A stretch of 32,413 nt of DNA from a virus: IMG/VR virus record IMGVR_UViG_3300028800_000235, positions 1-32,413 of that record; one strand, given 5' to 3'. Under the pieces are notes generated by a model. The model searched no databases, was not told the DNA's origin, and worked only from the letters and a program-made list of their open reading frames with translations. Numbering within the stretch: the stretch's first letter is position 1; every line of letters begins with the position of its first letter. This document shows, piece after piece, positions 10,923-32,413 of this stretch. The translations under genes were made by a program, and so were the position numbers.

Positions 10923-11234
10923 ATGCCTATAACAACAACTTCGGTCCTGCCTGCAGCCGTACAACAGTCGTTTAGTTATAAACTACTGTCCGTGCCGACT
11001 CCACGCATGATCCACAAAATACCAGCCGTGAAGAAAGTTATGCCACGCAATGGTGGTAGATTCTTCAGGCAGCGTAGATATAATCCTCTTGATGTAGCAT
11101 TAGTACCATTAGGAAATACGGGTGTAACTCCGCCAGCTCAAGAGCTAACCGCCGTCGACATAGACGCACAGATTCAGTTCTATGGTACGTATATTTTAAT
11201 CAATGAACAGGTGACGCTTCAAAATCAGGACCCT
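10923..11234 (+). CDS. Major capsid protein, N4-gp56 family, exon 1
   Basis: Codes for residues 1-104 of the capsid protein. It carries the family's N-terminal pattern: FRQRRYNPL, GVTP and the QFYGTYILINEQVTLQNQDP stretch. AAGGA precedes the start. The frame reads on for 13 codons into intron sequence before a stop, but the homologous protein continues with VLNEAALRLGVSL and RQTEDELTRNML, found in two later exons. Joining 10923-11234, 12425-12462 and 12682-13282 gives 951 bases and 316 residues, normal for the family. The exon ends GACCCT, whose last U pairs with G in the intron guide. The capsid forms the icosahedral shell around the DNA. Confidence 0.88.
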
Positions 11235-12424
11235 AAACTAATAATAAACAATGCTAATAATTTAATTGTACATTAACTATCTACCATTGTAAACTATATC
11301 CTATGATAAAATAATAATTATTGTAGGAGTAACATGGAAAAAGTAAGTATGGCATTCATAGCAGGAATAATTGATGGAGATGGAAGCTTATCGCTCATAA
11401 AAAAAATTGAGCATGATGAAAGAGCTCCATTATATTATCCGTGTATTCAGTTTTCTAAATCAAACCGATGTCTTCCAGATTTATTGAAAAAATTATTTGG
11501 TGGTTATAGGATTGATATAAAAAGAGCTAATAAGAAAATTGAGTGTAAATGGAAATTAGAAAAATCTGCTAATTGTTTGCCTTTTTTAGAAGTTATTGAG
11601 CCTTATATTCAGATAAAATCTGAACAAACAAAGTTGCTATTAAAGTTTATTAAAGAAAACCCTTTTAAGCGTGGTATATCATTAACTAAAGAACAGGTTT
11701 TATATAGAGATAATATATACTCAGAAATAATTAATCTAAATACTAGTAAAGATATGTTATCGGCTATAAGGCAAAATTATAGAATGCCTAAAAATAAAAG
11801 TTCTTTTTTTGATGAGTATGTTTCTGGATTATTTGATACAGATGGATCATTTTCTATTAAAAAAGAAATAACTAAAAGTGGATTTAGATATTCACCATTT
11901 ATATCTTTAAGTTTAATAAGTGCCAAAGTATTCAAGTTTATTAGACGAAATTCACGTTTAGGAAGAATATCAATTTATAAGTCAAATACTACGCTACAAG
12001 GATTTTGTTATAGATTTAGTGTAACTAAAAGAAATCAAGCAATAAAATTTCTAAAACTTATTATTCCATATTTACATAATAAGAAAGAGCAAGCAAAAGA
12101 ATTGTTAAAGTTCTGTGAATTATTTGAATCACAAAATGGTAGATATAAAAAAACAGAAGAGCAATTTATTATGCGTGAAATGTGCTATGAAAATATTAAG
12201 CATTTAAATGAATATGGGGTCGTTAAATTTCCTCTGATAGACTTGAAACCCTTACCAGGTAATGCTGAAGGCAACAAGGCGGAACCCTTATTTGGGACCG
12301 TGAACGTAGCAAGCGAGGAAACTCCTATGGTAGGAGATGCGGTGCTCTGAGCATACTAGAAATAGTATGAGGGATAAGTTGAGAAAGTCCCCGCCTAGAA
12401 ATAGGTCACAAAAGTAACAGAATG
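11235..12424 (+). ncRNA. Group I intron 1 in the capsid gene (with endonuclease ORF)
   Basis: A 1190-base self-splicing-type intron. P1: exon GACCCU (11229-11234) pairs with guide GGGGUC (12216-12221), with the required U-G pair at the splice site. P10: exon 2 GUAUU pairs with AAUAU (12211-12215). The intron ends in G. The core (about 12216-12424) shares long blocks with intron 2, such as CTGATAGACTTGAA, CAACAAGGCG, GTGAACGTAGCAAGCGAG, ATGCGGTGCTCTGA and GTCACAAAAGTAACAGA. Hairpins in it (CATACT/AGTATG; CCTA-GAAA-TAGG) show compensating changes against intron 2. The endonuclease gene lies in the P1 loop. Confidence 0.85.
11334..12350 (+). CDS. LAGLIDADG homing endonuclease (intron-encoded)
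   Basis: A 338-residue single-chain LAGLIDADG endonuclease. The two catalytic helices are FIAGIIDGDGSLSL (residues ~8-21) and YVSGLFDTDGSFSI (~162-175), each carrying the acidic residue that binds metal. Such enzymes cut intronless alleles at the insertion site so that the intron is copied by repair. TAGGAG lies before ATG 11334. The gene is more AT-rich than the capsid exons, as expected of a mobile insert. Its last ~45 codons run into the ribozyme core, and its stop is the TGA inside the conserved GCTCTGA block. Maturase activity is possible for this family but not shown. Confidence 0.88.
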   Translation: MEKVSMAFIAGIIDGDGSLSLIKKIEHDERAPLYYPCIQFSKSNRCLPDLLKKLFGGYRIDIKRANKKIECKWKLEKSANCLPFLEVIEPYIQIKSEQTKLLLKFIKENPFKRGISLTKEQVLYRDNIYSEIINLNTSKDMLSAIRQNYRMPKNKSSFFDEYVSGLFDTDGSFSIKKEITKSGFRYSPFISLSLISAKVFKFIRRNSRLGRISIYKSNTTLQGFCYRFSVTKRNQAIKFLKLIIPYLHNKKEQAKELLKFCELFESQNGRYKKTEEQFIMREMCYENIKHLNEYGVVKFPLIDLKPLPGNAEGNKAEPLFGTVNVASEETPMVGDAVL

Positions 12425-12462
12425 GTATTAAACGAAGCAGCCTTACGTCTTGGTGTGTCCCT
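12425..12462 (+). CDS. Major capsid protein, exon 2 (38-base micro-exon)
   Basis: Codes for VLNEAALRLGVSL (the last codon is completed by exon 3). This is the stretch expected after QNQDP in N4-gp56 capsids. It lies between introns 1 and 2. Reading phase fits both sides: phase 0 at the left junction, two bases of a Leu codon at the right junction. Confidence 0.82.
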
Positions 12463-12681
12463 TAAACTGGGGGACAATAAATCTTCTCTGATAGACTTGA
12501 ACCTCTTACCAGGTAAAGCTGGAGACAACAAGGCGCAAGCGATATATATCGCAGCGTGAACGTAGCAAGCGAGAAGACTTTCGAAAGAAAGATGCGGTGC
12601 TCTGAACAGATTAGAAATAATCTGAGGGATAAGTAGAGAAAGTCCCCGCCTATGAAAGTAGGTCACAAAAGTAACAGATAG
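12463..12681 (+). ncRNA. Group I intron 2 in the capsid gene (ORF-less)
   Basis: A 219-base intron. P1 is a local hairpin: exon UGUCCCU (12456-12462) pairs with GGGGACA (12470-12476), with U-G at the splice site. P10: exon 3 CAG pairs with CUG (12467-12469). It ends in G (12681), preceded by GTAACAGATAG, equivalent to GTAACAGAATG in intron 1. Hairpins GCGATA/TATCGC, CTTTC-GAAA-GAAAG, CAGATT/AATCTG and CCTAT-GAAA-GTAGG sit where intron 1 has differently paired stems. It looks like the minimal form of intron 1 without the endonuclease gene. Confidence 0.84.
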
Positions 12682-13282
12682 CAGACAAACAGAAGATGAA
12701 TTAACACGTAATATGTTGCAAGCAACTGCGGCACAGATTAACTGTGTTAATGGTGTGAATGGTGATATGCCTACTGAAATAACTCGAGAAGACGTTAACA
12801 ATATTATAACTATGCTTGTGCATGCTAACGCATATACAATCATGGATAACATTGAAGGCGAAGATCGTTTTGGCACCGCACCAATTCGTGATTCTTACTG
12901 GGCGATGGCTAACTCACAGATGATCCCGAGCTTTGAAGCTGTTGATGGATTTATTGCTAAAGCGCAATATCCTTCGCAGATGAATATCTTGCCAGCAGAG
13001 TGGGGTTCTATATCCAATATGAGATATTTAGTATCTTCTATTGGTTCTGTAACGCCTACTAGTTCTGCTATGGGTGCTGATGTTTATAACGTATTTAACA
13101 CTGGTTTAGAAGCATACTGCTGTATCGAGCAAGATGGATATTCAGCTAACTTTATCTATATACCTCCGATGATTGCTGGTGGACCATTAGCATTAAATTG
13201 CTCTGTTGGTTACAAGTTCGCTGAAGCTCCAGTTATAACAAACGACACCTGGATAATAAACCAGCGTGCTACGTTAGCATAA
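12682..13282 (+). CDS. Major capsid protein, exon 3
   Basis: Codes for the C-terminal two thirds of the capsid protein, starting RQTEDELTRNMLQATAAQIN and including the segment RDSYWAMANSQMIPSF and the AEWGSISNMRYLVSS strand-loop typical of the N4-gp56 family. The first base completes the Leu codon from exon 2. Without splicing, translation could only begin at ATG 12713 and would lack the conserved segment before it, so this is not read as an independent gene. The next gene starts ten bases after the stop. Confidence 0.87.
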
Positions 13283-14806: not shown

Positions 14807-15496
14807 ATGGCAGATAGCGGATACCATAATAATAGTATAAAATTATTTTCGAAAGAAAGTTTTAAACATTTATTACAAGGTATTGCTATGCATGAGTTCA
14901 ATAAAACTTGCTTGGTTTGTGAAAAGCAGTTGAAATTAATTAGAAAAGATCGTCCACCACGATTTTGCAGTTCAATTTGTTCTTTGAAAATTAATAGACA
15001 TGAACCACAAGTATATTGGAAAAAAGATATTACATTTAAAGAAATACAAGACAGATTAAGAATTTATTTTGAAAAAAATGTTATAAAAGGTAATGATTGT
15101 TGGGATTGGAAAGGCTATTTATCTGGAGGATATGGATTACTATCTATGAGCCCAAAGTTAATTGCAGCTCATAGAGCAAGTTGGATGATACATAATGGTG
15201 AAATCCCAAAAGATAAAATAGTTCTACATAAATGTGATAATAGAAAATGTACCAATCCAACACATCTATATTTGGGTACTCATCAAGATAATTCAAACGA
15301 TAAATATAATAGAAAAAGAGATAGACATGTTAAGGGCGAAAGTCATCGATGTGCTAAATTAAAGACGGAAAATGTTATACAAATTAGACAGTTACTAGCA
15401 GAAAATAAAGCTTTAAAGGAAATTGCAAGGATGTTTAATGTGAATTATAGCATAATATATTTTATAAAACATGGCAGAACTTGGAGGAGTGTATAA
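14807..15496 (+). CDS. HNH homing endonuclease (free-standing)
   Basis: A 229-residue enzyme. Residues 35-58 hold a zinc-binding CxxC...CxxxC pair. The HNH_3-type nuclease lies at ~120-165: HRASWMIHNGEIP, IVLHKCDNRKCTNPTHLYLG and a following Asn. The C-terminus (~182-229) is an AKLKTENVIQIRQLL...IARMFNVNYSII helix-turn-helix that would bind the target. It is more AT-rich than its neighbours, as expected for a mobile gene. Its first four codons (MADS) and the ribosome-binding region resemble those of the next gene, so it seems to have entered at that gene's start. Its stop overlaps that gene's ATG by one base. No intron core is visible around it. Confidence 0.85.
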   Translation: MADSGYHNNSIKLFSKESFKHLLQGIAMHEFNKTCLVCEKQLKLIRKDRPPRFCSSICSLKINRHEPQVYWKKDITFKEIQDRLRIYFEKNVIKGNDCWDWKGYLSGGYGLLSMSPKLIAAHRASWMIHNGEIPKDKIVLHKCDNRKCTNPTHLYLGTHQDNSNDKYNRKRDRHVKGESHRCAKLKTENVIQIRQLLAENKALKEIARMFNVNYSIIYFIKHGRTWRSV

Positions 15497-32195: not shown

Positions 32196-32413
32196 TTATT
32201 CAGCGAATCGCTGTATTGCTTTTATCATATCGTTATAATGTTCTGGCTTTAGATCATTTATCTTACGCGTACCACAATTTTTTTCCATAAGCTCTAAGAA
32301 CATATCCTGTCTATCTTTAGCAAGCTCATTATTATATATAGCCCATATCTTTCTTATCTCAAAAGGTGTATCGCTTGGTGCTTTCTTGGGTTCATATTTA
32401 TTTTCATATTTTT
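32196..32413 (-). CDS. erf: ERF-family annealing protein (3' part)
   Basis: The C-terminal 72 codons of the gene that starts at 587 (the first ~50 duplicate codons in the terminal overlap). The sequence reads through a Lys/Pro-rich linker into FEIRKIWAIYNNELAKDRQD, then ELMEKNCGTRK and ends IQRFAE. Compared with the left copy it has three more bases, in frame (Met-Glu instead of Lys). Its stop is followed eight bases later by the next gene. Confidence 0.78.
   Translation of the reverse strand, partial: KYENKYEPKKAPSDTPFEIRKIWAIYNNELAKDRQDMFLELMEKNCGTRKINDLKPEHYNDMIKAIQRFAE
32263..32413. repeat. Terminal overlap, right copy
   Basis: Same sequence as 1-148 apart from three extra bases (CCA) after the T run. 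The two copies cover the same part of erf. Confidence 0.85.

Follow-up and report, generated by a model that had tools for sequence, protein, structure and literature searches.

Two predicted group I introns of a phage-specific lineage interrupt the major capsid gene of virus record IMGVR_UViG_3300028800_000235

The interrupted capsid gene and its predicted spliced product

The major capsid gene of the virus record IMGVR_UViG_3300028800_000235, analysed here over its whole length of 32,413 nucleotides (the window), appeared to be interrupted by two group I introns that belong to a single phage-specific lineage, and to be spliced to a protein of 316 amino acids, a reading to which we assign a probability of about 95%. 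The intron boundaries, the intronless alleles, the core helices, the guanosine site and the P1 and P10 pairings were defined by comparison with related sequences. The comparison supported the reading of two group I introns that flank a 38-nt exon, with splicing as the predicted outcome.

All of the features lie on the + strand. Exon 1 (10923..11234, 312 nt) supplies 104 codons, matches PHROG 1357, aligns without gaps to 80 uninterrupted relatives and has the 3' end GACCCU, read as ...CAG GAC CCT. Exon 2 (12425..12462, 38 nt) codes for VLNEAALRLGVS and two bases of the following codon, and its peptide was uninterrupted in the alignment of 80 intronless relatives. Exon 3 (12682..13282, 601 nt), likewise aligned with the relatives and matching PHROG 1357 through its open frame, opens with CAGACAAACAG and includes the stop codon. 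Before splicing, the open frame at 10923-11276 matched the first half of PHROG 1357 (major head protein) with an E value of 6e-9, and that at 12713-13282 matched the second half with 3e-8. Excision of 11235-12424 and 12463-12681 joined 312, 38 and 601 nt into 316 codons and a stop codon with no internal stop, and the resulting protein gave one PHROG 1357 match over the full length (E 2.6e-26). The joined peptides expected at the splice joints are ...QNQDPVLNEAALR and LGVSLRQTEDELTR.

A search with the spliced 316-aa protein found uninterrupted capsid genes in 80 viral loci at 67-74% identity. Both joints were gap-free in all 80 of them, with the joint residues conserved at 98-100%. A spliced aligner that was informed only by a protein profile and by a slight bias towards U ahead of the intron and G as its last base returned boundaries identical to 11234/12425 and 12462/12682. 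The first-pass annotation, which had proposed from the sequence that the capsid frame is interrupted and had placed both introns, was thus borne out to the exact base by the spliced alignment and the 80 gap-free relatives. As a low intron penalty produced spurious micro-introns in divergent capsids, the counts given below were made with a stricter penalty, under which no intron was called in 30 uninterrupted control loci.

Structure of the two introns

Intron 1 (11235..12424, 1190 nt) is inserted at codon 104 in phase 0, and intron 2 (12463..12681, 219 nt), which is ORF-less, at codon 116 in phase 2. Both were delimited by spliced alignment, both carry an extra base in P7, and they are alike over the last approximately 205 nt (82% identity). 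The search for P1 placed the guide of intron 1 at 12211..12221, with AAUAU (12211-12215) as the P10 partner and the internal guide sequence GGGGUC (12216-12221) facing GACCCU. The guide of intron 2 was found at 12467..12476, with CUG (12467-12469) as the P10 partner and GGGGACA (12470-12476) facing UGUCCCU. The P1 and P10 pairings and the intron-terminal G predicted beforehand were accordingly present at both introns. The core of intron 1 (P3 to P9) spans 12228..12378, with P3 formed by 12228-12234 and 12315-12321. Its P7, ACG(U)AGCA/UGCUCU, has G264 at 12306, the extra U at 12307 and the 3' strand at 12343-12348. The core of intron 2 spans 12482..12633, with P3 at 12482-12488/12571-12577, G264 at 12562, the extra U at 12563 and the P7 3' strand UGCUCU at 12598-12603. 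Covariance model R1 scored 120.3 bits on intron 1 (12225-12378) and 123.3 bits on intron 2 (12479-12633), and the two introns were the only matches of the family covariance model in the window.

The guide of intron 1 is reached only after 981 nt of intron sequence, which places the endonuclease ORF within the P1 loop. This ORF (11334..12350, 338 aa) is a predicted LAGLIDADG homing endonuclease, matching PF00961 with 36.2 bits (E 1e-8) above the curated cut-off of 23.1, and its last ~45 codons traverse P3, P4-P6, the P7 5' strand, P8 and J8/7. The same layout, with a LAGLIDADG ORF in the P1 loop, was repeated at site 104 in four relatives (L003, L006, L074 and L114).

Evidence for group I identity

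The core was read from compact copies as P3 (7 bp), P4, P5, P6, P7, P8 and P9. Across 37 aligned introns, 98.9% of the cells were paired over P3-P9, including the P3/P7 pseudoknot, and changes on both sides were observed at 31 of the 34 core pairs. The covariation score was 0.707 for these 37 introns, compared with 0.203 for shuffled and about 0.1 for slid controls. In P3, all seven pairs showed both-side changes with 99.2% of the cells paired; in P7, four of six pairs did so with 100% paired. The only pairs that never varied in the 37 introns were 264-311 (G-C) and 265-310 (A-U) of the guanosine site, and G264-C311 was G-C in 49 of 49 introns. Where the first P7 pair (262-312) was A-U or U-A, the bulged base 263 was always C, and where it was G-C or C-G, always A, a pattern that agrees with the group I rule tying the bulge letter to the first P7 pair (PMC3511172). 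In J8/7, a G-to-A change was present in all seven introns whose P4 has CUCG instead of CUUG and in none of 152 others, which is the covariation expected of a core tertiary contact. A pairing of G305 of J8/7 with the conserved CGCC after P9.1 was also considered and was dropped; G305A tracks the CUUG to CUCG change in P4.

The splice sites of the family gave a similar picture. A P1 of at least 6 bp was formed in 169 of 187 family introns, compared with about 23 of 187 when exons were swapped, and the mean P10 was 3.56 bp against 2.06 bp for the swapped exons. The terminal G was found in 184 of the 187 introns, although this figure, like that for the terminal T, is biased because the aligner gave a bonus for T ahead of an intron and for G as its last base.

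The Rfam model RF00028 (Intron_gpI), whose silence on these introns the first-pass annotation had named as refuting the group I reading, gave no match in the window at the gathering threshold and none in the intron region up to an E value of 10; the T4 nrdD intron, used as the control in the same search, scored 105 bits. Sister introns in locus L036 gave sub-threshold matches of 30.1 and 17.7 bits against a cut-off of 50, which no family intron reached in the loci tested. In the opposite direction, model R1 detected the T4 nrdD intron with 31.3 bits and an E value of 5.5e-6, and the alignment fell on the true core of that intron. RF00028 is an insensitive probe for the lineage of the window introns, and the group I reading was upheld by the covariation that includes P7, the match of R1 to T4 nrdD, the sub-threshold RF00028 matches of the sister introns and the 80 intronless alleles. 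A search of phage records with the nucleotide sequence of intron 2 returned short chance matches only and no homologue.

The intron family in capsid genes

Scanning of viral contigs for the core pattern picked up more than 120 stretches that share the core of the window introns, which are members of a large family that occupies many different positions in this gene. Among 105 non-redundant capsid loci with introns, 56 insertion sites were occupied, 24 of them in two or more loci; the loci were picked by the window-type core motif, so that these counts describe the family and not its frequency. The commonest sites (codon.phase) were 144.0, 104.0 and 181.0. Intron-bearing loci contained one to five introns per capsid gene, and five each were found in L036, L068 and L244, the last a contig of a Parachlamydia bin. 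An initial count of nine introns in the Parachlamydia-bin gene was rejected, as it came from split model matches of five introns with loop ORFs. In every multi-intron gene checked, the exons were intact, in frame and stop-free. Exons of 22 nt recurred between sites 96.2 and 104.0 and between 116.2 and 124.0, and the 38-nt exon of the window (104.0 to 116.2) was also present in L006 and L032. Of 152 matches to the window-type core motif, 125 fell within the capsid gene, and most of the rest were in truncated loci. The sole clear window-type core outside the capsid gene (L068:364) lies about 9 kb away from it.

On a tree of 152 cores, the 48 sites needed 96 changes, compared with 119 in shuffles and a minimum of 47. 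The tree rests on 131 columns and the site-change count is therefore rough; by this rough measure, the introns shift between sites often, yet non-randomly.

An additional base in the guanosine site

Two types of P7 were distinguished among 187 distinct introns. A classical P7 (e.g. GACUG/CAGUC) was present in 80, and the window-type P7, with AGCA/UGCU adjoining G264-C311, in 107; both types occurred at 14 of the sites. An extra unpaired base between 264 and 265 was found in 104 of 105 readable window-type introns, being U in 83, C in 17, A in four and G in none. Apart from this base, which lies 3' of G264, the window type retains the G264-C311 pair and the bulge rule. The intron of L113 at site 116.2 has the AGCA/UGCU P7 of the window type without the extra base.

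Because the base varies and its neighbours are constant, it is most simply read as a bulge inside the guanosine site. It is predicted to bulge out with activity kept, although a weaker or altered binding of the cofactor is conceivable in principle. No report of an inserted base in the guanosine site was found in the literature searched, which consisted of titles and abstracts with subscription journals thinly covered, and we know of no precedent for an extra nucleotide inside a group I guanosine site. An altered bulge letter alone is highly unusual among more than 22,000 group I introns (PMC3511172).

Reading frames carried by the introns

Inserts of at least 90 nt in P6 were present in 92 family introns. 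One frame was open from P6 through the core in 83 of these 92, the other two frames being open in one and four, and about half of the introns have an ORF that starts in P6 and crosses the catalytic core. Such P6-loop ORFs were seen in L051, L098, L015 and L040 and in about 80 further capsid introns. In more than 60 introns, the start codon lies 2-4 nt past a purine-rich P6 strand (AAGGGGCAA), and the P6 strand AAGGGGCAAG is likely to act as the ribosome-binding site. The frame continues as QPERSKRED in the extra-base type or QPERLSEKT in the classical type, often into P8. The bodies of the P6 ORFs were very diverse, forming about 57 groups, with one DUF551, one HNH-like domain below the curated cut-off and several with CxxC pairs. 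Some diverged pairs showed dN of about 0.35-0.5 and dS of about 2, consistent with selection on the encoded protein. The cargo ORFs may be translated.

LAGLIDADG-like genes antisense to the capsid gene were seen inside introns of L018, L022, L065 and L100. The sense ORFs beginning MPARIKF... in site-104 introns resemble the reverse strand of antisense genes and have dN close to dS, and were not counted as cargo.

Proposed mechanism and alternatives

From the conserved structure, splicing in vivo would proceed as follows. Each intron would fold in the transcript into the P3-P9 core, and its guide would pair with the end of the upstream exon, placing a U.G pair at the splice site. A guanosine bound at G264-C311 of P7 would attack the 5' splice site, with cleavage after the U of P1; the terminal G would then dock in P7 and the exons would be ligated, giving the message for the 316-aa capsid protein. 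The LAGLIDADG endonuclease of intron 1 probably promotes homing into alleles that lack the intron, or did so in the past. Across the clade, introns would have entered the capsid gene at dozens of positions, many with small cargo ORFs that run through the core.

The inserts could instead be degenerate and non-splicing, leaving a truncated capsid or a defective phage and making the family a set of dead elements. The silence of Rfam on the window introns and the extra base in the guanosine site could be taken in this sense; the reading is nevertheless very unlikely, as introns are found in this essential gene across dozens of independent genomes, exons are intact in every multi-intron gene checked, and 98.9% pairing has been kept with compensatory changes. 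It is still less credible, to the point of being nearly negligible, that the inserts are another kind of self-splicing intron with a similar guide. Besides the missing Rfam match and the extra P7 base, an unusual J3/4 and the conserved 3' AAAAGUAACAGA would fit such an element, but the P3/P7 pseudoknot, the covariation rule of the guanosine site, P1 with U.G, the terminal G, P10, the match of the T4 nrdD intron to the model and the sub-threshold RF00028 match to sister introns all argue for group I.

Partial skipping of the 38-nt exon, in which the 5' site of intron 1 is joined to the 3' site of intron 2, deserves more weight and is still unlikely. Both 5' sites end with CCCU and both guides begin with GGGG, so that a guide can form 4 bp with the wrong site compared with 6-7 bp with its own, and exon skipping between group I introns has been documented in Twort orf142 and SIOphi (PMC11878797). 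On the other hand, the guides differ at the next two to three bases, and the loss of 38 nt would shift the frame and destroy the capsid protein.

With two group I introns as the preferred reading, a broader proposal can be made tentatively, and we regard it as possible rather than probable. The capsid gene of this clade may be a standing reservoir of introns. A single lineage of ribozymes, its guanosine site remodelled by a base inserted between G264 and A265, would have reached dozens of sites in the gene and would carry accessory genes. A strand of the ribozyme would be their ribosome-binding site, and folding, splicing and cargo translation would compete with or regulate one another late in infection.

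Comparison with known introns

The closest structural reference was the T4 nrdD (sunY) intron of subgroup IA2, whose P7 letters are identical to those of the classical sister type in the family (AACGACUA/UAGUCU, with bulged C) and whose P3, P4, P5 and P9 aligned with the window family in the covariance search. Subgroup IA is defined by the P7.1/P7.2 hairpins in the Michel-Westhof scheme. Unlike T4 nrdD, the window family has no P7.1/P7.2 between the P7 5' strand and the P3 3' strand, the gap being 3 nt in all of the 37 aligned introns; it also differs in having P9.1/P9.2 after a short P9 and, in the window type, the extra base in P7. The fold is the same as that of RF00028.

Phage capsid genes with a single intron (Tuc2009 and LittleE) are already known, as are phage genes with two or three introns. 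As far as the literature searched showed, the intron density and the number of sites in one capsid gene are new, as are the extra base in the guanosine site and the cargo frames through the core. To our knowledge, a comparable density of group I introns has not been reported for any phage gene. Twort orf142 contains three introns, and polymerase and terminase genes of Bastillevirinae contain two or three, with small exons and exon skipping (PMC11878797). The window family resembles these in having several group I introns per gene with small exons between them, but it reaches up to five introns per gene and 24 recurrent sites in a capsid gene of 948 nt, with exons of 22 and 38 nt. The Bastillevirinae introns lie in genes for nucleotide and DNA metabolism and terminase, with none in capsid genes (PMC11878797). 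The capsid intron of LittleE (mycobacteriophage cluster J) is most likely group I, with a LAGLIDADG frame on the opposite strand (PMC3706429). LittleE and Tuc2009 share the location in a capsid gene with the window family, but have one intron per gene and are unrelated phages.

The dense occupation of a highly expressed structural gene provides a natural series from zero to five introns over 24 recurrent sites, in which intron spread and the tolerance of the gene can be studied. The inserted base, together with the one natural relative without it, offers a way to test how much change the best-studied ribozyme active site tolerates. Because the Rfam model misses this lineage, surveys of phages underestimate the number of introns, and the capsid genes of such genomes have probably been annotated as fragments.

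Phage clade, probable host and genome context

The window phage belongs to a large and apparently undescribed phage clade. Among bacterial and archaeal genomes, taken as one per species for 84,980 species, the intron core occurred in two bins only, Parachlamydia sp. and Simkania sp., and a model search of 234 Chlamydiota genomes found five with introns. All of the bacterial matches were in Chlamydiota bins (Parachlamydia, Simkania and three others; L222, L223 and L230-L249). Three of these contigs have lengths of about 40 kb, as complete phage genomes do, which indicates co-binning of phage contigs and is not proof of the host. The clade probably infects chlamydia-like bacteria, and an association with environmental Chlamydiota would draw attention to the tailed phages of these intracellular hosts, about which little is known.

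Downstream of the capsid gene, a free-standing HNH_3 endonuclease ORF was found at 14807-15496, possibly a further homing element. The record ends, 1-587 and 32196-32413, share the same sequence over at least 120 nt, and because of this repeat the phage genome is probably circular or terminally redundant.
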